The notes below the pieces were generated by a model, which saw nothing but the letters and a program-made list of their open reading frames with translations, made no database searches and was not told the origin of the DNA. From a virus: 31,189 bases of DNA. Every line of letters begins with the position of its first letter. Position 1 is the stretch's first letter. The stretch is taken from positions 1 to 31,189 of the IMG/VR virus record IMGVR_UViG_3300037247_000675; one strand, given 5' to 3'. Below are positions 3,979-23,213 of this stretch, piece after piece. The position numbers and the translations under genes are program-made.

Positions 3979-4150
3979 CCCCGTCGCCCTCCGCCGGGGT
4001 CTCCGGCTGGGCGCCCTTCCACGCGGTCTCGACGATGAGCTGCCAGTCGGCATAGAGGATGTTGCCCACGTCCCGATTGCACTGCACATCGCCCACGACT
4101 TCGTTCACGTTCGCGATGGCCTGCTCGAGTTGCTGTTGTTCTGGAGTCAT
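3971..4150 (-). CDS. Hypothetical small acidic protein, 59 aa, last gene of the late operon
   Basis: The ATG (4150) overlaps the stop of the fibre-like gene as ATGA (4147-4150). The protein starts MTPEQQQLEQAIANVNEVV, a likely amphipathic helix, contains one Cys, and ends in an acidic Pro-rich tail. It could be a small fibre chaperone or tail protein by position, but nothing in the sequence proves it. It is convergent with the RHH gene and overlaps it by 8 nt. Confidence 0.66.
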   Translation of the reverse strand: MTPEQQQLEQAIANVNEVVGDVQCNRDVGNILYADWQLIVETAWKGAQPETPAEGDGAT

Positions 4151-7100
4151 TGAAATGCCCCGAACGTCTGCTGATCCGCGATCATGGTTCCCACGATAGC
4201 GCGTAGCTGGGCAAGCGTAGCAGTCGACACATCCAACGAACGGCTGGTCGATGGATTGGTCACCGTGTACGTCGGAGGAGCGACACCCGCCGCACCGTTG
4301 ATGCCGACGCCCGTGTTGTCGATCCGGATTCGATCGGAAGTGTTGGCCGATTGGATCTTCATCTCGGTCAGGGTATTGCAGTCGATTGTCCCGATGGCAG
4401 TTGCGTCGTCTTTCCAGAATTGCAATGTGTTGGCGGTCAAGTCAAGCCGCAACGTTCCACCCCCTAGCAGCGAGAGGGTGTTCGTCCCGGGCGACCAAAC
4501 GGCGTTGTTGGCGTTGCGGAACTGCCATCTTCGAGAATCACTCACTTGCGTATGCCCGTCGCTCCGGAGCGTAAAACGCACTAACGGAGTAGTCGTGCCC
4601 GTTGAAAAGGCCAACGAGATCGGCACCGTGCCGGTCGTTACCGTGCCGTCGACAATGCCCTCTAACCTAGCCGTTGAAACAAACGACGTCCCGTCGTGCC
4701 CCTTCATGTTGAACCGGCCAATGGTCCGAGTCGATCCAACTGCTGTAGGCGTATCCAGCGAGCCACCCGCCGTGTTCGTATCCCATATACCGAATCGCGC
4801 CGCTGTACCATACGTGTTCAGCGTAACCTTGCAGGAGTTCCCGTCGAAGGTTCCGACCATTCGCTCCCAATTGTTCAGCCGAAAGCCCTCGCACTCCAGG
4901 TCGGCCCCAAGCTGCGGGGTTGTATCCTCGACGATGTTTTCTAGATACGCACCCAGGTCGGAAATTGCGGCTTCGGTTACGGTTCCCCCACCCGCGGCGT
5001 TCAAATGGGTGTGGCCTGCGTTGGCGAAACTCCCGATCGTCGGCGTCGTCAGTGTCTTGTTCGTGAGGGTCTGGGTGCCGGTGAGCGTCACCATCTGCGA
5101 GAGATCGACGTCGGCATCCGCCATCGTGATTGTACGCGTGTTCCCGGTCGTCAATCCCGACAGCTGAAAATCCATCTCTTTGGTAACGTCGCTCTCATCG
5201 AAGAGATGCCAGGCGTTGTCGGCGAATTCCGTTGTCACCCCGCCGACGCCACCGGTCGCGGATTGTGGATTAGTTCCACGGAGATCAACGGTAGACACGT
5301 GTGCCCAAGTGCCGCCGATTTTGCTCATAGTCACGCGAGCTATGAGAAACCCGGTTGCGGACTCAACATCATACTCACTGGGCAGCCCGAAAACATCGTA
5401 GCCGTCCACATCCGTTTCAGCGGATTGTTGTTTATTATAGCTACCGGTCGGCAGATTCATTATCAAGGGCGAATACTCGCCGCCCTTGTTGGCTACCGCA
5501 GCAATCAGCCAGTTGAAATACTTTTTGACTGCCACACCGTTGGCATCGTTCGTCAGCAGCTCCAGGTCCGTAACCGGATCGAATGCCGCTCCGTTCTGAT
5601 TGAGAATCAGGATCGCATCGCCGGTAGCGGTATCCATTGCAGGTGTCGCATGTTTGTGCATCTGACGTACAACACCCGCCGTCACCGCCACGTCTACCGT
5701 CGTACCCCCGCCACCGATGGTTATTGTCAGGTCGCCACCGGATCGATAAATGGCGTGGTCAGCCCGTAATCGTTCGGTTATGTGTACGAGGTGACCCTGG
5801 CCATTAGTGCCCTGGGCGTGATCATTGGTATTGTGATTGATATACACACCCTTCGTCTGGACAAATCCCGCCGAAGGAGCCAAGAAAAACCCGACCTTGA
5901 TGTGCTCAGCGGATGGCCAATCCGACGTGGACTTCGTGAGCACCTTCGTGCTCTGGAGCACATAAATGAAGTTGTCTGTAGGGCTAGTGTCCGAACCCGC
6001 GGTCAGTGCAATCGTGGCCGCGGGCGTACAGTCCAGTATCGTTTGCCCATCGGAGAAGTTCATCGTCAGATCGCCGCCGCCATCCTGCTCGATGGACATC
6101 GTCACGGTCGCGCCGTCGCTCGTGGCCAGGGCATTGAAGCTCTCGATGAACGTGCCGTTGAAAAAGGCAAGGAGATCGCCCACGTTCCGTCCGTCGACCT
6201 CCCCGTCCTTGAGTAGCACGCCGTCGATGGTCACACCGGCCGCGGTCGTACTTTCGAGGATGCTGTCAGTGAAAATGTCCCCTTCGACTTCTAGATCGTT
6301 CTGTACGCCGAGGTCGGCTCCATCCCCTGCGGTATCACACACCAGGTTGTCGAAGATGCCAGTGCCTTGCCAATGCGCCACGGTAACCGCCGCAGTGCTC
6401 GCGGGTGCCGGGCCGGCGCACAGAAGCGAACGGGAGTTGTAGGTCGCGTTACCCACGGCCGCCTTAGCGATGGCGAACCGCAATGAAGTACCCCCGGTCA
6501 TGGCAAATGCAAACTCGACGGGACCGGTCGCGGGAGCTGACAGGTTTCGGAACAGTACGGTCCCATCGAAATCGACTGCACCCGCCTTGTACGATGACCT
6601 GCCAACGGAGAAGTTGCCGACCTGCATGATCCCATAGTCGGATGTGTTGCCCACCGTGAGATCGTAGTCTGTCAAACCCCCGGTGCCAACGCCCGGCACG
6701 CTGACCACGCCCGTACCCTTGGACGCGATTATGATGCCAACGTTCGTCTCGCCGCTAGCCGTGATGCTCGGATCGTTCGTCGTCGCCGCGTTGGCGATCG
6801 TGAGTTCGTTCACGGCAGACGCAACGGAGGCCATCACCACTATCTCGCGGCTGTTGCTGTCCCAGAATTGTAGACCAGTGTTCGCTTCGCCGCTGGCGGC
6901 CATGATGGGCGCATTCCCGGTGACGTGATTGGCCAGCGAGAAATAGTTGACTGCTGAGTCCCCTGCGGAGCTAAGGACCAACAGGTTCGGATCGGCGCCC
7001 CCCGTATCGGCCCGGATCAAACTCAGACCCGTGAGCGTAGTGGCCGCGGCCTTGATGCCGACCGAGGACAAGCCGCGCGCACCGTCGCCCACGACGAGGG

Positions 7101-7518
7101 CAGCAGCGTCCAGGGTCGCCCCGGCGGTTACGGAGGTGGGAATGCTTATGTTGATCTCCGTGTCCGGCGCCTCGGCCACGGTGAACACCGAACTGAAGTC
7201 GAGCGTCACGATGTCGGCGCCGCCCACCTGGACGCCACCGGACTTGACCGTCGTCATCGAACCCGTGCCGCCACCTACAGAACGCCCCGCAAGTGCATCT
7301 AACGCAGTACCCACTTCGCGGGGCACGGTCGTCCAATCGCCCGGCGTTACGGGCTCGTACCCAACGTTGTTCGCCGGGCTCGATGGGGACGTGGTTTCGG
7401 TGTCGGTCCGCTGTACGGCCTTTGCGCCTACCCACGAGCTGAGCCCGAGGAACAACAGGGCGAGGGCGACATACACCGTTGCAATTTTGGCCCAGCCTCC
7501 GTCTACGTGTTTCGCCAT
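4147..7518 (-). CDS. Large tail-fibre-like structural protein with N-terminal membrane segment, 1123 aa
   Basis: The largest protein of the window. Residues about 11-33 (KIATVYVALALLFLGLSSWVG) form one hydrophobic segment after a short polar start, like a signal anchor. The rest is Gly/Thr/Ser/Ala-rich and beta-prone. A TQTLTNKTLTTPT segment near residue 810 followed by AGHTH is characteristic of phage tail fibres and host-specificity proteins. The C-terminus (NPSTSRSLDVST then LAQLRAIVGTMIADQ) resembles a recurring fibre C-terminal cap. Likely role: receptor-binding or peripheral virion protein. GAGGGG precedes the ATG. The membrane segment is odd for a fibre (see findings). Confidence 0.8.
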   Translation of the reverse strand: MAKHVDGGWAKIATVYVALALLFLGLSSWVGAKAVQRTDTETTSPSSPANNVGYEPVTPGDWTTVPREVGTALDALAGRSVGGGTGSMTTVKSGGVQVGGADIVTLDFSSVFTVAEAPDTEINISIPTSVTAGATLDAAALVVGDGARGLSSVGIKAAATTLTGLSLIRADTGGADPNLLVLSSAGDSAVNYFSLANHVTGNAPIMAASGEANTGLQFWDSNSREIVVMASVASAVNELTIANAATTNDPSITASGETNVGIIIASKGTGVVSVPGVGTGGLTDYDLTVGNTSDYGIMQVGNFSVGRSSYKAGAVDFDGTVLFRNLSAPATGPVEFAFAMTGGTSLRFAIAKAAVGNATYNSRSLLCAGPAPASTAAVTVAHWQGTGIFDNLVCDTAGDGADLGVQNDLEVEGDIFTDSILESTTAAGVTIDGVLLKDGEVDGRNVGDLLAFFNGTFIESFNALATSDGATVTMSIEQDGGGDLTMNFSDGQTILDCTPAATIALTAGSDTSPTDNFIYVLQSTKVLTKSTSDWPSAEHIKVGFFLAPSAGFVQTKGVYINHNTNDHAQGTNGQGHLVHITERLRADHAIYRSGGDLTITIGGGGTTVDVAVTAGVVRQMHKHATPAMDTATGDAILILNQNGAAFDPVTDLELLTNDANGVAVKKYFNWLIAAVANKGGEYSPLIMNLPTGSYNKQQSAETDVDGYDVFGLPSEYDVESATGFLIARVTMSKIGGTWAHVSTVDLRGTNPQSATGGVGGVTTEFADNAWHLFDESDVTKEMDFQLSGLTTGNTRTITMADADVDLSQMVTLTGTQTLTNKTLTTPTIGSFANAGHTHLNAAGGGTVTEAAISDLGAYLENIVEDTTPQLGADLECEGFRLNNWERMVGTFDGNSCKVTLNTYGTAARFGIWDTNTAGGSLDTPTAVGSTRTIGRFNMKGHDGTSFVSTARLEGIVDGTVTTGTVPISLAFSTGTTTPLVRFTLRSDGHTQVSDSRRWQFRNANNAVWSPGTNTLSLLGGGTLRLDLTANTLQFWKDDATAIGTIDCNTLTEMKIQSANTSDRIRIDNTGVGINGAAGVAPPTYTVTNPSTSRSLDVSTATLAQLRAIVGTMIADQQTFGAFQ

Positions 7519-9885: not shown

Positions 9886-10792
9886 TATGCTCTCCCGTTC
9901 GTCCTCGGCGCGCCCGTGCCACGCTTGTCCGATAACCAACGCTACCGCTAAAATCGTTGCGTACATGCTCTTGCTCCTGTGCTGAGACCTGTTGTTCAGT
10001 AACACTGAGCATTGTACGCAAACCCGATCGTTCAAGCAAGCGCCCCGAGGGCGCCGCGCCCGGGGAGTCGCCACCGGAACGCGGCGCCACAACAGGAGCA
10101 GAGTCGTTCATGCATGGTATTTCCGAAAGTAGCCCAGCAACCTCGGCCTCACTTACGTCTGCATTCGGTAGAGCCGGCATGGGCGACTCGTAATCGTGCA
10201 GCCATTGGGCGGCCGTAGGAGGCTCAGCCATCCACCCGAGGAGCGCCGTCCAAATCGCGGTTCGCCAATCAAGCGGAGTAGCCGTAATCGCTTCAAGCGT
10301 GTTACTGCTCGGCACGCCGGTCACGGCGATGTCAAGTGCAGCCATCTTCTTGAGCCGGTGCCGCCACATGTCACGATCGAGTTCGTCGCGCCGTTCGTGC
10401 GTCAGCTCGCCGATCTGCTCTTTCAGCGCGGTCGCCTGCTGATAGAAGCGAAGGAACTCGCGGGCCGAATCGTGGATGACCTGGTCCAGCTCAACCGACG
10501 CCGCCTCCTTGCGCCGTAACTGTCGTTGTACCCGTGCGTGGCGTCGTCGGGAGATTCGAGTCCACCAGCGCCCGCCTAGCTCGGCCAGCTCATCGGTCAG
10601 ATCCTCGCGGTCGTGCAGCAGACCGCCCGCGCCGAACAGCCCACGGTAACGCTTGTCCAGCTCACGGAGGGCCTGTTTGTACATGCCATAGACTGTCCCT
10701 CCGCTCTCGGCGGTGATGAAGTAATCTATTTGGAACGTGGAATGGAACCGTTGATGATCGGCTAGTAGTTCCAGAATGCTCTCCCTGTTCAT
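9869..10792 (-). CDS. Hypothetical helical phage protein, 307 aa
   Basis: ATG overlaps the stop of the Kelch-like gene as ATGA. The first 180 residues are strongly helical and charged (LDKRYRGLFGAGG, RISRRRHARVQRQLRRKEAA, LKEQIGELTHERRDELDRD), suggesting coiled coils. A Trp-rich part follows (LDWRTAIWTALLGWMAE), and the last 90 residues are Ser/Gly/Arg-rich and probably disordered. Helical proteins placed after a receptor-binding gene are sometimes assembly chaperones, but I recognise no family. Its 3' end overlaps the next gene. Confidence 0.62.
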   Translation of the reverse strand: MNRESILELLADHQRFHSTFQIDYFITAESGGTVYGMYKQALRELDKRYRGLFGAGGLLHDREDLTDELAELGGRWWTRISRRRHARVQRQLRRKEAASVELDQVIHDSAREFLRFYQQATALKEQIGELTHERRDELDRDMWRHRLKKMAALDIAVTGVPSSNTLEAITATPLDWRTAIWTALLGWMAEPPTAAQWLHDYESPMPALPNADVSEAEVAGLLSEIPCMNDSAPVVAPRSGGDSPGAAPSGRLLERSGLRTMLSVTEQQVSAQEQEHVRNDFSGSVGYRTSVARARRGRTGEHNGKHA

Positions 10793-11733
10793 GCCGACAC
10801 CTCCGCCGTCGCATGCCAGCCCCTTGGTGTGGGCAAACTGCTAACTGATTTCCACGTTGCATTCGCAAAGCGATCGACATCCGCCAGAAAGCCGAATGGG
10901 AAAAACAAATCTGCCGACCCGCCAACCAGATATCCAAATCTGCGCAATGTGAAGCTTTCCGCAAGTCGTCGCCTGGGCAACGGCACGTCCGTATCAGCCG
11001 ACCAAGCATCGGCTCCGACATTGTACTTGTCGTTGTCGGATAGGTACGCTGTGCCCCAATCACTGCCCTGGCAAACGTGTATAAAGGAACCCAAGCGAAA
11101 GGCTGTATGTTGGAGGCGTCCAGGTGGCGGGAGATCCCGACGCACCGACCAGGTGGAATTGGCGAATCTCTCATTCGAAGTTTGAGGCGGCAAGGTGACT
11201 GAAATTACCCCTGCAATAATGTATCCCGCGCCTCCGTACCCCGTCGCGCTATGGTAGACCCGTTTCGTGTACATATCAGTGTCGGTGGCCCATGCTAAAC
11301 CATTCCACTTGAGTACTTCCTTCAGATACGGGCCACGAATCCCACCGAAGCAGTACCCAGCCCCTCCGATATTCGCAGCCTCGATTCGGCTAGTAGCGTG
11401 CGCCAACGGGAGCTGTGAGATCCAAGCATCGTTGACATAACGATCATGGTCATTCAACATCGGAAGTTCCGGCAGGTCCCTATTAGAGCCGCCGACCAGG
11501 TTGGCCCCGCCAGCGAAGTTGAAAGCGGCCGCCACGGCCCGGCCGGGCAAAGGCACTGCCGTTTTGACCTCCCATGTGTCACTGAAGCTATATCGATAAT
11601 TCGCTCGCAACGCGCCTCCCATGCCGCCGAAACTGTGACCATAGTCCCGCGTTCTTGCTCCCCTTGCTCGCAGGGGCGATTCGATGAAAGCCCCTAGCGT
11701 AGACTTCGCGAAACTTCCGAACTTCGTGGACAT
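10789..11733 (-). CDS. Kelch-like beta-propeller protein, probable tail adhesin
   Basis: Six repeats begin at about W54, W104, W148, W195, W244 and W294 (spacing 44-50 residues). Each has the Kelch plan: (A/T)W followed by a LP.PR-like turn about 7-9 residues later, then H/A-rich strand and a YxxGG or equivalent (ANLVGG, GYCFGG, GYIIAG, GYLVGG). This predicts a six-bladed propeller after a roughly 45-residue Gly/Arg-rich start. Kelch propellers bind proteins or glycans, so with its place among fibre-like genes a receptor-binding role is likely. ATG 11733 was preferred to 11760, which would overlap the upstream gene by 22 nt. Confidence 0.74.
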   Translation of the reverse strand: MSTKFGSFAKSTLGAFIESPLRARGARTRDYGHSFGGMGGALRANYRYSFSDTWEVKTAVPLPGRAVAAAFNFAGGANLVGGSNRDLPELPMLNDHDRYVNDAWISQLPLAHATSRIEAANIGGAGYCFGGIRGPYLKEVLKWNGLAWATDTDMYTKRVYHSATGYGGAGYIIAGVISVTLPPQTSNERFANSTWSVRRDLPPPGRLQHTAFRLGSFIHVCQGSDWGTAYLSDNDKYNVGADAWSADTDVPLPRRRLAESFTLRRFGYLVGGSADLFFPFGFLADVDRFANATWKSVSSLPTPRGWHATAEVSA

Positions 11734-11738
11734 CCGCT

Positions 11739-12272
11739 CTACCCGTCTTCCTCGGCCCATTCATGGCCGTGGTCGCGCGCCTCCCAGCGAACCTCCACTT
11801 CCTCGCCGTCCGGCAATAGGGCCGTGACGCCCGTTCCACCGTTCACCAGATTGGCGAGAATCTCATCATCCACGAGCCACGGAGGATTGATTACTTGGTT
11901 CTCCGTCTCGGTCTCTTCTCCAACGGTAAGGGTGGCGATGCGTCTCGTGTTGCTCGTATACGCATACGTCATATCATTGCGAGGTGGCATGTCGTCGAAC
12001 GGCGTGCGACGCAAGCCCCACGGTTTCGCAACGTATACATCACTCACACCAGACGGCGTACTACACACCAGGTAATCCCCGAAGTCACTGGCATTCGTAA
12101 TCACGAACCTTGTGGGTCTACCGTCTACCGCTTCCGGTATCGGGTGCCCGATGACCTGCTGAGCGGGGCCAACACCAGCCATGCGATTAAGCTTGTCCAC
12201 GGGCTGATTCAGCCTATCCGCCCTGAGAGCCTCACCAATCCTCCAGCGCTGAAGCGTTCCTGGTTGAATCAT
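11739..12272 (-). CDS. Hypothetical minor structural protein, 177 aa
   Basis: The N-terminus (MIQPGTLQRWRIGEALRADRLN followed by a helix) resembles the opening of small phage minor structural proteins that start with a short docking helix. The rest looks beta-rich (TRFVITNASDFGDYLVC, NTRRIATLTVGEE) and the end is strongly acidic. ATG overlaps the previous stop as ATGA. No specific function assigned. Confidence 0.68.
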   Translation of the reverse strand: MIQPGTLQRWRIGEALRADRLNQPVDKLNRMAGVGPAQQVIGHPIPEAVDGRPTRFVITNASDFGDYLVCSTPSGVSDVYVAKPWGLRRTPFDDMPPRNDMTYAYTSNTRRIATLTVGEETETENQVINPPWLVDDEILANLVNGGTGVTALLPDGEEVEVRWEARDHGHEWAEEDG

Positions 12273-18266: not shown

Positions 18267-18599
18267 TTATTCCTCGTCCTCGCCCAGGTCCACGCCGCAA
18301 AGCAACTCGTCCATCTCGCCGCGCTCGTCTATGTTCCGCACATCGATGACATTGACCTTCCGACCGTCATGCACGAACCAGCAGTCCGGCGTTATCGTCT
18401 CGCCGTGTCGCTTGCGAACTTTGTGCGTCAGCGTCGGGCTCAACTGTTTCGCCTCGATTGCCTCACGTCCTCGCAGCGGCTCGATGGAAATCCACGCCTC
18501 TTCGACGTCTTCATCGACCGGAATCACCGTGCCGTCATCGTCGTCGGTTTCTACCGTCCGGCGGAACTTCACGAGGTGTCGCAGGCGTCCGGCTCGCAT
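18267..18599 (-). CDS. Head-tail adaptor (SPP1 gp16-like)
   Basis: 110 residues from ATG 18599, sharing one base with the connector stop (TGATG) and preceded by GGAAG. MRAGRLRHLVKFRRTVET is the usual opening of the phage head-tail joining family (GxLrhrvxxqr), followed by EEAWISIEPLRGREAIEA and a beta-rich end. These proteins form a ring under the connector as a stopper or adaptor. The very acidic C-terminus (VDLGEDEE) is a small oddity. Its gene is convergent with the antisense cassette. Confidence 0.84.
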   Translation of the reverse strand: MRAGRLRHLVKFRRTVETDDDDGTVIPVDEDVEEAWISIEPLRGREAIEAKQLSPTLTHKVRKRHGETITPDCWFVHDGRKVNVIDVRNIDERGEMDELLCGVDLGEDEE

Positions 18600-19177
18600 C
18601 AGAACTTCCAAATCGGGTCCAGTAACAGCAGATCATTGACCGATTTCGCCATTTCACTGCCCATGGCTCCCACGATGATCGGCTCGCGGTTCTCGTACCA
18701 GTTAGCAACGAGCAGGTGTATGGCCTGTATGTACGGCTCGGGAACGTCCGTCCCCGCCGCGCCGTAGCCCGCCACGTAGGTCAGCTCAACGGCATTGAAT
18801 CGGTCGCGCGTCGATGGCCACGACAGGTTGTACTCCGGCTCGATACGAGCGGGCTCGCTCTTGTAGTCGACGGTAAAGTCCGTGTTCTCGGTCAGCGCCG
18901 TAATCGTGTTATCGAGGTCGTAATACTTCAGCGTGGTCACACTCGACAGCGGCGGTAACGGCGGTCGGATGATTGCGGGGAACGCATCGAGGTAGAGAAT
19001 CCAGGTCGCTTCTATCAATTGCCGATGGCTGACGGCCTCGACGTACTCGCGGGCGAGTCGAATCTGACGTTGGATCAGGGGGTCTTCGCCCGTGTGCTTG
19101 ACGCGCAGGTGCGCCTTCACATCTTCGAGCAGGACCGGCTCGGCCCCAGGGACAGCGCTTAGTTCGGGGTTCGCCAT
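18599..19177 (-). CDS. Head-tail connector, HK97 gp6-like
   Basis: 192 residues. LLEDVKAHLRVKHTGEDPLIQRQIRLAREYVEAVSHRQL is the diagnostic N-terminal helical pair of gp6-like and phiE125 gp8-like connectors (VKxHLRxxxxxDDxxI...A..yvE), followed by a Pro-rich strand region (PAIIRPPLPPLSSV) and the YVAGYG plus PEPYIQAIHLLVANWYENRE segments near the C-terminus. It binds the portal and forms the first ring of the neck. ATG overlaps the previous stop (TAATG). Confidence 0.88.
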   Translation of the reverse strand: MANPELSAVPGAEPVLLEDVKAHLRVKHTGEDPLIQRQIRLAREYVEAVSHRQLIEATWILYLDAFPAIIRPPLPPLSSVTTLKYYDLDNTITALTENTDFTVDYKSEPARIEPEYNLSWPSTRDRFNAVELTYVAGYGAAGTDVPEPYIQAIHLLVANWYENREPIIVGAMGSEMAKSVNDLLLLDPIWKF

Positions 19178-19677
19178 TAGCCTGCAACCAATTCAATCTG
19201 AAATACATCCGTGCCCGTGCCCGTGATGTCGATGTTTTTGTGTGTCGCGTCCACGTCCTCGCCGTTGTTTGGGATGTAGCGAAGCTCTGCGCCACCTGGC
19301 ATCACTTCGATACTCTCATTGCTCGCATTGTCGGCCCCGAACAAGTTGTAGCCGTTGGCCGCACCCACATCGAAAGTCACGCCCCCGCTATTCGTGGCCG
19401 GACACTTGATTTTGACCAACTGGACCTTGAGGCCATCGAAGGTGATCGTTGTACCAGATGGACCGGCCAGACTGGTCAGGTCGAGACTAGCGGACCCGGC
19501 AGCTAGGGAAATCGTGTCGCTGAAGGGCTTGGTTGCCGGGACCGTAGAGGATGCAGTGAGCGTTCCGTTCACGACGCCGATGTCATGGTCCATCGGCACA
19601 TCGGTGACGTTGTCCAGGCCCTGATCGGGCGTCTCGGTCGCCAATAGCTTCAAAACGTAGAGGGCGCTAACCGACAT
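19177..19677 (-). CDS. Hypothetical beta-rich structural protein, 166 aa
   Basis: Ser/Thr/Gly/Asp-rich protein with short strands (SLDLTSLAGPSGTTITFDGLK, KIKCPATNSGGVTFDVG, GGAELRYIPNN, TGTDVFQIELVAG), the look of an Ig-like or jelly-roll virion protein. Many phages carry a comparable gene between capsid and connector. No family recognised. AAGGTG lies before ATG 19677, and the 5' end overlaps the 43-residue basic gene. Confidence 0.72.
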   Translation of the reverse strand: MSVSALYVLKLLATETPDQGLDNVTDVPMDHDIGVVNGTLTASSTVPATKPFSDTISLAAGSASLDLTSLAGPSGTTITFDGLKVQLVKIKCPATNSGGVTFDVGAANGYNLFGADNASNESIEVMPGGAELRYIPNNGEDVDATHKNIDITGTGTDVFQIELVAG

Positions 19678-19798
19678 TGGCTTTCACCTTCTTTCGGGGG
19701 CGTCGTCGCTTTCGCGGCTTCGGCGGCGGCTTGACGGCGCGTTCAGCCGTCTCGTCGACCATCATTGTTCTCGGCCACCGTTGCTGACGTGCTTTCAT
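19667..19798 (-). CDS. Very basic 43-residue protein
   Basis: ATG 19798 overlaps the stop of the methyltransferase-glycosyltransferase gene as ATGA, and the frame ends at TAG 19667, 11 nt inside the next gene. Residues 23-40 run PPPKPRKRRRPRKKVK, a Pro/Lys/Arg tract giving a strong positive charge. Such a peptide could bind DNA or RNA or acidic glycan; no family recognised. The overlap on both sides is the main evidence that it is translated. Confidence 0.6.
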   Translation of the reverse strand: MKARQQRWPRTMMVDETAERAVKPPPKPRKRRRPRKKVKANVG

Positions 19799-21060
19799 CG
19801 CACAACCTCCGCAGGAATACCGTTGTCATTGTAATCGCCGGGCGATTGGTAAATAGGTTTCAACGTCGTGCTCGGCCAGCGTATCACCTCTTCCATGTGC
19901 CCGATCGGTACGCGGTTTGCGAGATACAATTTGTTGCCATGCTTGAGCCATGACCTCCAGAACCAGATATCCGGGTGTAGCGAACCTTCTCCCCACTGAC
20001 CCCGGTGGTCGGGCTCAGACGCAAACCACGGACGCGGGAACGCCTTGAGCGAAGATACCTTGAAGATCGTCAGGCCGAAGTGCCCACTGACAATGGACGT
20101 GAGGTTCCGGTCGAAGTCCGCCGCGTTGACTCGGCCGCGGGGTTTGCCATCCGAGTCCAACATCCCGAACATCGCGTGCCCGGAACACCGCTTCATCTGA
20201 AGTGCGCAAATCGCATCGGCATCTTCGCATGCCCTTGACAGACGGCATAGCTCGGCCACTTCGTCGCGTCCGAATACGCTGTCGTAATCGATCGTGATAA
20301 TATACTCGGCACCGCTGTCGAGCAGCTTTTCCAACTGCTCCGAAAGCACTTGGTGCCAGTAGGCGCCCTGGGCCATGTAGTACGGAATCCGCATTAGCCC
20401 CAACGCGATACCTACGTGCTTGAAGTGCATGATGGAACCGAACCGCGGGGCGGACAACAGGGCCGCGACAGTTCCCGGCACCAATTCGACCGCTGTAGGC
20501 TTGAAGGCTTGAAGGTTCAGGCTAACCGGCAGCGCAGAGCAATCGGCATATTCCGACTTGAATTCGCCGATCCGTTCCATCCCGACATTGATCAGTTTCT
20601 CGCGCAGATATTCGACGTCGAAAATGGACTTGTGGTAGTCGTTCTCATCGGTCTGCGCACCCATGAGGAAACCGACGGTGTTGATGGGCTCGCCCTTGAT
20701 GTATTTGTCGGCTATCCATCCCAAGTCGGGCACGGCAACCCGAAGCCGCCCGCCGGGTTTGAGCTTCTTGCACCAATGTTCCAGAACTTTGGGCACGTCT
20801 GCGTGGCTGAAGTGTTCCAGGACGTGCGAAGCATAGATGTCGTCCACGCTGCCGTCCTCGTACCCTGCGAGTGGAAACACTTCCGTGCCGACACTGCGGT
20901 CGATCGTCGTGTAACCATCGATCTGCAACTTACCGCCACCGAGGTTCAGGCGGATGGGCGAGATCCGATCCGAAGGCGCCATTATCACCTTGCCCGTTAC
21001 CTGCGCCTGCCACTCCCCATCCGACATCGTTTCTACCGTCTCGCCCTTGCTCTCACACAC
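19795..21060 (-). CDS. SAM methyltransferase fused to a glycosyltransferase
   Basis: Numbering from GTG 21060 (GGAG 8 nt upstream; ATG 21027 is an alternative without a ribosome site), 421 residues. The N-terminal class I methyltransferase has motif I LNLGGGK (38-44), an acidic residue at IDRS (53-56), ASHVLEHF (77-84) and LKPGGRLRVAVPDL (100-113). From about residue 200 a glycosyltransferase-A-type domain follows: YIITIDYDSVF (253-263) with a DxD-type metal site, GHFGLTIFK and a HPDIWFW..W...GNKLYL segment (362-380). Role: probably transfers a sugar and methylates it or a neighbour sugar. It is the last enzyme of the cassette. Confidence 0.82.
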   Translation of the reverse strand: MCESKGETVETMSDGEWQAQVTGKVIMAPSDRISPIRLNLGGGKLQIDGYTTIDRSVGTEVFPLAGYEDGSVDDIYASHVLEHFSHADVPKVLEHWCKKLKPGGRLRVAVPDLGWIADKYIKGEPINTVGFLMGAQTDENDYHKSIFDVEYLREKLINVGMERIGEFKSEYADCSALPVSLNLQAFKPTAVELVPGTVAALLSAPRFGSIMHFKHVGIALGLMRIPYYMAQGAYWHQVLSEQLEKLLDSGAEYIITIDYDSVFGRDEVAELCRLSRACEDADAICALQMKRCSGHAMFGMLDSDGKPRGRVNAADFDRNLTSIVSGHFGLTIFKVSSLKAFPRPWFASEPDHRGQWGEGSLHPDIWFWRSWLKHGNKLYLANRVPIGHMEEVIRWPSTTLKPIYQSPGDYNDNGIPAEVVR

Positions 21061-21149
21061 AATCAGTTCTCCACGGGCCCGCTCATCACACCCCAGCAGA
21101 GCGGCCACAAGGACCGCACCTGCCAGGGCTGTGTGTGAGCAAGGCCGGC
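21061..21149 (-). other. 89-nt spacer in the modification cassette
   Basis: Between the FkbM-like gene and the fusion gene. The fusion frame stays open through it and reads a hydrophobic stretch ending LLGCDERA, which looks like a lipoprotein signal, but no start with a ribosome site is placed to use it. Most other genes in this operon overlap, so the gap may mark an insertion boundary. Confidence 0.4.
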
Positions 21150-21779
21150 CTAGCTCTCCAAACAATCTCCACGACACCAAATGATGTTGCACTCGGTCAC
21201 CGCCAGGGGGCAATAGCCCTTCGAGACGCCTAAATAATGAACCATGTTCCGTCCTGCTTGAATGATCCGAATCGGTTCCCGATTCTCATTCGACAAGGGC
21301 GGTATCTGATCGACGGGACGGCCAAGGCCGAACTCGACGATCATAATCCGCGGCCGGCACCGCTGCATTCCCGCCCAGAGCCAGAAGTCCTGCTCATCGA
21401 TGTCGATGACGCCAACATCGGGGTCTTCCGGTACACCGGCTTTCGCCAGCACGGCTTCAAACGTCCACGGGAACACGCGCTCGCAAATAGCCTTGACGTG
21501 TGTGTTCCCATCGTATCGCTTAGCAAGAAGACGGAAGCGATCGCGGTCAGCCTCGATCATCGCAGCGTGCCAACCACTACCGATCAGCAGCGCCACATTC
21601 GACAACGTCACACCGTCAGAAGCCCCGACCTCGAAACACCAGCGGTTCGTGGTGCCGATTTTCTCGAGAATCGCTGCGATCAGCCCGTCTTCGCCATACT
21701 GAGTGTAGACGTTACTCGCGCAACCGTTAAGCCACGGCACACATTGGACCAACCGCGGTTCTTCCTTTGCCTCGCTCAT
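21150..21779 (-). CDS. FkbM-like SAM-dependent methyltransferase
   Basis: 209 residues from ATG 21779 (GAGGAG 7-8 nt upstream). VYTQYGEDGLIAAILEKIG (24-42) matches the SQxGEDG opening of a methyltransferase group related to FkbM. Motif I is WCFEVGASDGV (47-57), motif II AMIEADRDRF (73-82), followed by VGVIDIDEQDFWLW (122-135) and RPRIMIVEF (142-150). Such enzymes usually O-methylate sugars of surface glycans. It overlaps the sulfotransferase gene by 53 nt and precedes the fusion gene, so the three enzymes are co-transcribed. Confidence 0.8.
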   Translation of the reverse strand: MSEAKEEPRLVQCVPWLNGCASNVYTQYGEDGLIAAILEKIGTTNRWCFEVGASDGVTLSNVALLIGSGWHAAMIEADRDRFRLLAKRYDGNTHVKAICERVFPWTFEAVLAKAGVPEDPDVGVIDIDEQDFWLWAGMQRCRPRIMIVEFGLGRPVDQIPPLSNENREPIRIIQAGRNMVHYLGVSKGYCPLAVTECNIIWCRGDCLES

Positions 21780-22473
21780 CACACAACTCCTCAAACCAAT
21801 CCAGCGCGCCGCCGTGAACCTCGCCGAAGGTTCGTTGGAGCGCTTCGGGCATCTCTGTTTTCCACTGGCCTACTGCACCGCTACGGAAGAATGTAGGCCG
21901 CAGCTTGTGCAAGTCGTCGAACTTCGGAATATCGAACACCCCCACGGGCGCTATGCCCAAGTCGAGCGTATCGACCGCTGCACGTACTGTTTCTACGGGA
22001 TCGCGAATCAGGTCATCGAACACCACGTAAGCCGTTGGGGCCGCACGCCCGGCCCACACGAGCGTGTGTATGCCCCAATGACCGAGTGTTCCCTTCCCGC
22101 GACACACCATGTCGAGCAATTCGTTCCACGGCTCCGTGCGCTGCAGTTGGTCGCGGGCATAATGGGCGAGGCTCACGGCTACATCTCTGCCGTCGCGAAC
22201 GATGTGTATCGCCCGCGCACGGGTAGCCGCCGTGTCAACCAAGTGCGTTTTGACGACGTACAACGGCAGAGAGCCATCGGCCTGCCAGGGCCAGCGGCGT
22301 TCACTCTTGAACAGCCCCGTGATCTTATCTTCGCTGCCGTAGAGCGTCCACGTGGGTATCCCGTACATCCGCTCGAACACATGGCGGAAGAACGTGACAC
22401 CCGAGCGTGGGTAACTCGCTAGCCACACGCCATCCATGCCGATGCCGCTCTGCTCTGACGATTCGCGCGTCAC
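21727..22473 (-). CDS. PAPS-dependent sulfotransferase
   Basis: 248 residues from GTG 22473. All four landmarks of cytosolic-type sulfotransferases are visible: the 5'-phosphosulfate loop YPRSGVTFFR (21-30), the KTHL segment with the candidate catalytic His77, the 3'-phosphate loop IVRDGRDVAVSLAHY (91-105), and the C-terminal FRSGAVGQWK (196-205), like the RxGxxGDWK motif. It should move sulfate from PAPS to a hydroxyl of a sugar, lipid or Tyr. The position right after capsid genes and before two sugar-modifying enzymes suggests a glycan substrate. Host-supplied PAPS would be needed. Confidence 0.88.
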   Translation of the reverse strand: MTRESSEQSGIGMDGVWLASYPRSGVTFFRHVFERMYGIPTWTLYGSEDKITGLFKSERRWPWQADGSLPLYVVKTHLVDTAATRARAIHIVRDGRDVAVSLAHYARDQLQRTEPWNELLDMVCRGKGTLGHWGIHTLVWAGRAAPTAYVVFDDLIRDPVETVRAAVDTLDLGIAPVGVFDIPKFDDLHKLRPTFFRSGAVGQWKTEMPEALQRTFGEVHGGALDWFEELCDERGKGRTAVGPMCAVA

Positions 22474-22480
22474 AGCCGCT

Positions 22481-22942
22481 CTACCCCAAAATGAGTTTCA
22501 CGGCACCCGCCTCGGACGCCGTATTGGGCGAAACGGCCCCGCGGCTCAATCGCCCGGTTGCACCTACCAACTGGGCTACGGCAGGTGAACCCCAATACAG
22601 CTCGATGTAGCGCTTACGGTCTCGTAGATCGACGCCCATGCGGATGATCTGCGAACCGGCGGTAACGGCAACCGTGGGCCAGACAAAGCCAACCGTAGCC
22701 GATGTCGCCGCACTGCCGACGAAAGCCGTCATCACGTCGGTAGCAACGAATGCGGTCGTGTCCGACTCGCTGAGTGCGATGGACTTCGTAATGCTAGTCG
22801 TTGCCGCGACCGTACCGAGTACCAGGTCCACCTCGAGGTAATCCCAATCTCGGCAGTCGATGTAGCCGCTCGCAGTCGAATTCGACGCAAGGGACTGCGG
22901 GACGATCAACGCCCCTACTTTTGCATTTTGTCCGTGAATCAC
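22481..22942 (-). CDS. Hypothetical capsid-proximal structural protein, 153 aa
   Basis: Start GTG 22942 with AAGGAG eight nt upstream; upstream in-frame sequence is an Arg-rich shadow of the previous gene. The protein is beta-rich with KVGALIVPQSLASNSTASGY, DYLEVDLVLGTVAATTS, and RKRYIELYWGSPAV. This pattern is frequent in small proteins encoded just after the capsid gene of siphophages, where decoration or minor head proteins occur. It ends 7 nt before the sulfotransferase start. Function not proven. Confidence 0.72.
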   Translation of the reverse strand: MIHGQNAKVGALIVPQSLASNSTASGYIDCRDWDYLEVDLVLGTVAATTSITKSIALSESDTTAFVATDVMTAFVGSAATSATVGFVWPTVAVTAGSQIIRMGVDLRDRKRYIELYWGSPAVAQLVGATGRLSRGAVSPNTASEAGAVKLILG

Positions 22943-22943
22943 G

Positions 22944-23213
22944 TTATGGCTCCTTCTTCTTGGGCGCAGCCGTAGCCGTGTAGGCCGTGCCGGCCGTCTT
23001 CGGCAACGTTTTTGTCTCAGACTCAACCTTGGGCGGCTTAGGGCTTACCGGTCGCGGGGCCATCGCCTTGCGCGCCTCGCGGCTGTCCGCCGGAACGATG
23101 GTCCCGTTCTCTCGCAGCGCCCGCGTTTCATTGGGCGCCAAGACCTGGTGCGGCTCGACCCGATCGCCCGTAGACCAACTCTTGTACGGTTTGGTGAAAA
23201 CAAATTCGCTCAT
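22944..23213 (-). CDS. Small capsid-proximal protein with Pro/Lys-rich tail, 89 aa
   Basis: ATG 23213 with GGAGG nine nt upstream. The first 50 residues (EFVFTKPYKSWSTGDRVEPH, then LRENGTIVP) look like a small beta domain often found after capsid genes. The remainder (PRPVSPKPPKVESETKTLPK and a Lys-rich end) is probably disordered. It may be a minor head or decoration-associated protein; no family assigned. Confidence 0.7.
   Translation of the reverse strand: MSEFVFTKPYKSWSTGDRVEPHQVLAPNETRALRENGTIVPADSREARKAMAPRPVSPKPPKVESETKTLPKTAGTAYTATAAPKKKEP

Follow-up and report, generated by a model that had tools for sequence, protein, structure and literature searches.

A candidate virion glycosylation locus with a predicted sulfotransferase, located downstream of the capsid gene in uncultivated tailed phages

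Covalent glycans on the virion have been shown in few tailed phages so far. Virion proteins of the mycobacteriophages Che8, Corndog and Myrna are glycosylated, with experimentally demonstrated glycans on both capsid and tail tube (Freeman et al. 2023, as cited in PMC12363180 and PMC12619734). A related phage, Maravista, has its glycosyltransferase genes close to the 3' end (PMC11256854). The virus STIV encodes a GT-A enzyme, A197, and has a glycosylated coat protein, B345 (PMC10551542). Phage sulfotransferases are counted as metabolic genes in virome papers, among the sulfur-related or other auxiliary metabolic genes (PMC8290583, PMC12285232, PMC13079714); another virome paper calls their function unclear. 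A literature search on virion sulfation in phages found no precedent among the papers covered. Here we describe three adjacent genes in the linear IMG/VR virus record IMGVR_UViG_3300037247_000675 (31,189 bases, called the window below), encoding a predicted sulfotransferase that uses 3'-phosphoadenosine 5'-phosphosulfate (PAPS), an FkbM-like methyltransferase and MT-GT, a fusion protein with methyltransferase and glycosyltransferase domains.

We consider it reasonably probable that these genes are the variable part of a glycosylation system of the head module, which would place a methylated and here probably sulfated sugar on a protein of the head, the decoration-like neighbour being the likeliest. 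The minus strand of the window carries an ordinary tailed-phage late block, running from small and large terminase through portal and prohead protease to an HK97 capsid protein, and after the cassette through connector, neck, tail terminator, tail protein and chaperone to the tape measure. An initial annotation had placed three co-oriented enzyme genes between the capsid and connector genes, and the PF05065 and PF05135 matches of the two border genes bear this out. The features are as follows.

21727-22473, minus strand: PAPS-dependent sulfotransferase; start GTG 22473 or ATG 22437; PF00685 (9.3e-16) and PDB matches
21150-21779 (listed open reading frame to 21794), minus strand: divergent FkbM-like methyltransferase; marginal PF05050 matches of relatives, G-x-x-D-G motif
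19795-21027, minus strand: MT-GT, N-terminal S-adenosylmethionine (SAM) methyltransferase and C-terminal predicted GT-A glycosyltransferase; start ATG 21027 or 20982
22481-22942, minus strand: Ser/Thr-rich beta-sandwich, decoration-like protein of 153 residues; constant neighbour of MT-GT and proposed acceptor
19177-19677, minus strand: small protein, second candidate acceptor; 19% Ser+Thr, homologues after MT-GT copies
22944-23213, minus strand: small conserved open reading frame between the capsid and decoration-like genes; homologues in the same place in loci L003-L006
23230-24690, minus strand: major capsid protein with HK97 fold, bordering the slot upstream; PF05065, 4.1e-35
18599-19177, minus strand: head-tail connector, downstream border of the slot; PF05135, 1.2e-10; phrog_442, 3.8e-22

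Identity of the three enzymes

Judged by its sequence, the first protein is clearly a PAPS sulfotransferase, for which sulfate transfer is predicted. PF00685 (Sulfotransfer_1) scored 58.4 bits against a curated cut-off of 22, and the top PDB match was the sulfotransferase 5x2b. Four catalytic and PAPS-binding landmarks had been annotated, and every one can be read in the window protein: the PAPS loop SYPRSGVTF, VKTH with the catalytic KTH, IHIVRDGRDVAVS and FFRSGAVGQWK. Within these, RDGRD is the 3'-phosphate site and RSGAVGQWK the C-terminal RxGxxGxW motif. Residues K63, H65, R81, D82 and R84 were invariant among 14 phage homologues. The annotation had named a PAPS loop missing from close relatives as a finding that would speak against its reading; the three closest relatives retain [SA]YPRSGVTF. 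In distant homologues both this loop and the C-terminal motif differ, some loops reading GWPHNGST or similar.

The FkbM-like label of the second protein is a fair but distant one. No Pfam match was obtained for the window protein, and its relatives match the FkbM family models (PF05050, TIGR01444) marginally: for PF05050, L066 reached 23.0 bits against a curated cut-off of 22.7 and the others stayed below it. The family has an invariant G-x-x-D-G motif of the SAM-enzyme type, and the window protein is 24-43% identical to 15 phage homologues. It may represent a subfamily of its own.

In the third protein, the annotated fusion of a methyltransferase to a glycosyltransferase was confirmed by a Methyltransf_11 match in the N-terminal half and a predicted GT-A fold with an invariant motif in the C-terminal half. 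The latter half had no significant Pfam match, and no curated Pfam glycosyltransferase model matched the window protein; its assignment as a putative GT-A glycosyltransferase follows from the modelled fold together with a DxD-type motif, DYD, invariant in 14 homologues. The AlphaFold2 model had a mean local confidence (pLDDT) of 83.6 and a predicted template modelling score (pTM) of 0.58, which leaves the arrangement of the two domains uncertain. In Foldseek the model matched SAM methyltransferases and GT-A enzymes separately, the matches including STIV A197, LH3, GlfT2 and GalNAc-transferases. A197 had the highest target-normalised TM-score of the list (0.68, at 16% identity).

The gene limits were partly revised. 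The FkbM-like gene probably starts at ATG 21779, which is preceded by GAGGAG, so that its overlap of about 53 nt with the sulfotransferase gene is real. For the third gene, the annotated TTG start at 21213 probably makes the protein too long. Similarity to relatives begins near residue 85 of this open reading frame, so the start is ATG 21027 or 20982, and the annotated overlap between the second and third genes probably does not exist.

All three enzymes are under purifying selection. In the close pairs of relatives listed, the ratio of nonsynonymous to synonymous polymorphism (pN/pS) was 0.07-0.16 for the sulfotransferase, 0.04-0.08 for MT-GT and mostly 0.06-0.09 for the FkbM-like protein; one near-identical FkbM-like pair gave 0.82, a value from too few differences to be informative. 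Chance is excluded, because the cassette is conserved in independent contigs and pN/pS is low in close pairs. The third-position G + C content (GC3) of the cassette, 0.68-0.73, was like that of the remaining operon. The idea of a recent foreign insert was dropped, as G + C content and GC3 agree with the neighbouring genes and the slot is widely shared.

Conservation of the slot and exchange of its enzymes

Related loci were recruited in three ways, starting from the capsid protein, MT-GT and the sulfotransferase, and the results agreed. All of these loci (L numbers) are metagenomic or come from metagenome bins, and their gene maps were drawn with iterated profiles built for this analysis. Recruitment with the capsid protein gave 45 loci, 32 of which had MT-GT or its glycosyltransferase half downstream of the capsid gene. 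Scans of IMG/VR gave at least 578 MT-GT relatives; the synteny figures that follow hold for the best 80 of these loci, among which 57 relatives were distinct at a limit of less than 70% identity. Genes for virion proteins accompany the glycosyltransferase gene: a capsid gene lay within 3.5 kb upstream in 38 of the 38 distinct relatives with enough upstream sequence, the decoration-like gene upstream in 48 of 51, and a connector gene downstream in 17 of 25.

The scan with the sulfotransferase used one conserved peptide pattern and therefore describes this subfamily, not all phage sulfotransferases. Of 30 loci, 22 had the order capsid, decoration-like, sulfotransferase, in some cases interrupted by an FkbM or a small gene; several of the 30 are contigs already found by the other recruitments. 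Three further loci with no capsid gene in view (L223, L224, L228) have the sulfotransferase gene next to a gene of the MT-GT type, the match in L223 being partial. A search for the same three genes in other phages, as the annotation had proposed, succeeded in one contig: L207 carries capsid, decoration-like, FkbM, sulfotransferase, GT-MT and connector genes in this order, with the same three activities as the window and the two domains of the last enzyme reversed.

The locus was hardly seen among sequenced isolates. Among 50,697 phage records, nucleotide and protein searches found no homologue of the window sulfotransferase, and weak partial matches only for the FkbM-like protein and MT-GT. 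No mycobacteriophage record was among the tblastn matches to the cassette at E 1e-3. A single-sequence scan with the window sulfotransferase gave nothing, its homologues coming from the alignment-based scan alone. None of the window proteins could be assigned to a named family of NCBIfam, the one match (ornithine carbamoyltransferase, far under the cut-off) being spurious. Full-length MT-GT was rare in cellular contigs, where the majority of matches span the methyltransferase half alone; the slot is complete in a few cellular records, among them L129 (Phycisphaerae), L131 (Coriobacteriia) and L133 (Phycisphaerales).

The accessory enzymes are gained and lost repeatedly while MT-GT persists. 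On a quick tree of MT-GT, from which gain and loss numbers are approximate, presence of the sulfotransferase required 14 changes, of which well-supported branches forced at least 10, and presence of FkbM required 8. Some loci encode the activities in one protein: L095 has a sulfotransferase-MT-GT fusion, L066 and L064 each have an FkbM-MT-GT fusion, and L132 has a protein with FkbM between the methyltransferase and glycosyltransferase parts. In a lineage with a standalone glycosyltransferase, an FkbM gene lies between the portal and capsid genes in nine of nine loci with enough upstream sequence; since this is one lineage, the placement counts as a single event at most. The slot can also hold a fusion of GDP-mannose 4,6-dehydratase with a cupin (L077 and L083; the L078 sequence looks alike), cytidylyltransferase-like proteins (L072, L065, L129) or a different methyltransferase (L123). 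The dehydratase and cytidylyltransferase-like genes are as expected of sugar pathways.

Several contigs showed further variants. In four of them a nucleotidyltransferase-like protein directly follows the sulfotransferase (L065:6309-6992, L066:2053-2685, L113:6309-6992, L129:1534-2223); CTP_transf_like was matched in L065 and L129, the C-terminal part looks MazG-type, and the protein may supply an activated donor. In the same slot, L072:5862-7028 joins a cytidylyltransferase-like domain to what seems a GHMP-type sugar kinase part and could encode a bifunctional sugar-nucleotide enzyme. The connector gene of L003, L005, L006 and L050 is flanked by two MT-GT copies, which may provide one transferase per acceptor or add sequential sugars.

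Elsewhere in the window, a Kelch-repeat-like protein (10789-11760, minus strand; Kelch_3, 8.5e-6) is encoded downstream of the tape measure gene and is possibly a tail or receptor-contact protein. The tail region also encodes a 1123-residue protein (4147-7518, minus strand) with no match in Pfam or PHROG, a possible tail fibre or host-contact protein.

Proposed function and alternatives

A check for hydrophobic segments found no strongly hydrophobic one in the three enzymes, which should therefore be cytoplasmic and use nucleotide sugars, SAM and PAPS supplied by the host. During late expression, soluble MT-GT would move a sugar from the host nucleotide-sugar pool onto a freshly synthesised protein of the head; the Ser/Thr-rich decoration-like protein, whose gene lies just upstream, is the likeliest one. 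The methyltransferase half of MT-GT and the FkbM-like enzyme would methylate the attached sugar, the sulfotransferase would add sulfate from host PAPS, and the resulting particle would be coated with methylated and sulfated sugar. A role of the coat in negative charge, shielding or adsorption to surfaces is speculation.

The decoration-like protein (22481-22942) is the most likely acceptor. Its AlphaFold2 model is a beta-sandwich (pLDDT 87), and Ser+Thr make up 20% of its residues, with a family mean of 22%. The best PDB match of the family profile, a weak one at E 0.042, was 8cjz_B, a capsid decoration protein; it spans almost the whole domain and includes a shared RYLR motif. Foldseek matches of the model were generic beta-sandwiches in the PDB and, in BFVD, phage proteins mostly without a name. 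The product of 19177-19677, a probable virion protein without a match in family searches, is the second candidate: L003, L005 and L050 have a homologue of it behind their second MT-GT copy, and L055 has one behind its only copy. In L056, two similar tandem proteins (5767-6351 and 6352-6903) lie between the decoration-like gene and MT-GT and are perhaps duplicated virion proteins and further acceptors.

The initial annotation had proposed a sulfated, methylated glycan on capsid or tail proteins. Modification of the virion is supported by the gene identities, the conserved slot behind the capsid gene and the fusions, while we infer the modified protein, the sugar, the order of the steps, the presence of sulfate and methyl groups on sugar and not on protein, and the benefit. 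Several points weigh against the proposal. The sulfotransferase and FkbM are optional in the slot, so that most relatives would bear unsulfated sugars. The decoration-like assignment depends on the match at E 0.042 and on position, and the gene also occurs without MT-GT (L022, L044, L046) and so does not depend on it. A few sulfotransferases of the family lie away from head genes (L214, L230), and the supply of nucleotide sugar and PAPS by the host is assumed. The evidence for a modified virion protein is indirect and comes from genes, domains and context.

Polysaccharide pathways typically include genes for FkbM, sulfotransferase and GDP-mannose dehydratase, and the dehydratase is among the slot occupants. 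The enzymes might remodel polysaccharide or lipid of the host surface, for superinfection exclusion or receptor masking, and merely ride in the late operon. Glycosyltransferases of temperate phages do alter host serotypes (reviewed in PMC12619734). We nevertheless regard this as unlikely: the enzymes are soluble and have no membrane segments, no flippase or polyprenyl-linked partner was seen among the slot occupants, and the position directly after the capsid and decoration-like genes is fixed in very divergent phages, where a host-directed gene would be expected to move more. Somewhat less likely still is that a virion protein is the target without any sulfated glycan, the sulfotransferase acting on protein (e.g. 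tyrosine sulfation) and the methyltransferases on side chains. The sulfotransferase fold leaves the acceptor undefined, the matched PDB enzymes use small molecules, and L227 and L231 have the slot sulfotransferase with no MT-GT in view, where the contigs end. However, the fusion and adjacency to a glycosyltransferase and the sugar-nucleotide genes in the slot favour a sugar as acceptor.

Hypermodification of phage DNA against host restriction, by glycosylated or otherwise decorated bases, has well-known precedents among phage glycosyltransferases (Pyle et al. 2024, as cited in PMC12619734), and glycosyltransferase- and sulfotransferase-based nucleotide modification systems of phages are mentioned in PMC10829341. 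For this locus it is very improbable, since the constant partners are capsid and decoration-like genes and not replication genes, and no gene for modified-base biosynthesis was recognised in the searched parts of the window, a record that may be an incomplete genome. An auxiliary gene of sulfur metabolism with unrelated transferases serving host metabolism, the category in which virome papers place phage sulfotransferases, is the least credible explanation, as sulfotransferases use up PAPS and do not supply sulfur, and 22 of the 30 loci of this family have the gene in the head slot. Glycosylation of a head protein is favoured because of the slot position, the fusions, the sugar-pathway occupants, the low pN/pS and the A197-like GT-A fold.

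Significance and comparison with known systems

The fused MT-GT beside a capsid gene occurs in hundreds of environmental contigs and in hardly any of about 50,000 sequenced phage records; virion glycosylation of this kind may have been missed because the phages are uncultured. Recurrence of the same slot in many unrelated environmental phages suggests that these phages decorate their virions, presumably with sugar, and the recurrent exchange of accessory enzymes suggests selection for varied surfaces. Tentatively, a large and hitherto undescribed group of uncultivated tailed phages may have, immediately behind the capsid gene, a dedicated modular locus for glycan building and make varied coats, sulfated ones included. 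The conserved slot and the fusions suggest what some phage sulfotransferases, assigned to sulfur metabolism in other work, may concretely do; if this wider reading is true, many such auxiliary metabolic genes would encode virion-decorating enzymes.

The window sulfotransferase shares its domain and landmarks with the PAPS sulfotransferases of PF00685. It differs from them in being short (248 amino acids), in its location in a phage head operon and in having relatives that are sometimes fused to MT-GT (L095). STIV A197 has a GT-A fold, as predicted for the window MT-GT, but is a single-domain enzyme of an archaeal, non-tailed virus; donor and acceptor are unproven for A197 too, and we know of no methyltransferase or sulfotransferase partner for it. 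As in the mycobacteriophage systems, phage-encoded glycosyltransferases are proposed to act on head proteins; the window differs in having a fused MT-GT between the capsid and connector genes and an optional sulfotransferase and FkbM. The comparison suggests that the locus would work like known virion glycosylation systems, with a fused, modular architecture that is distinct from theirs.

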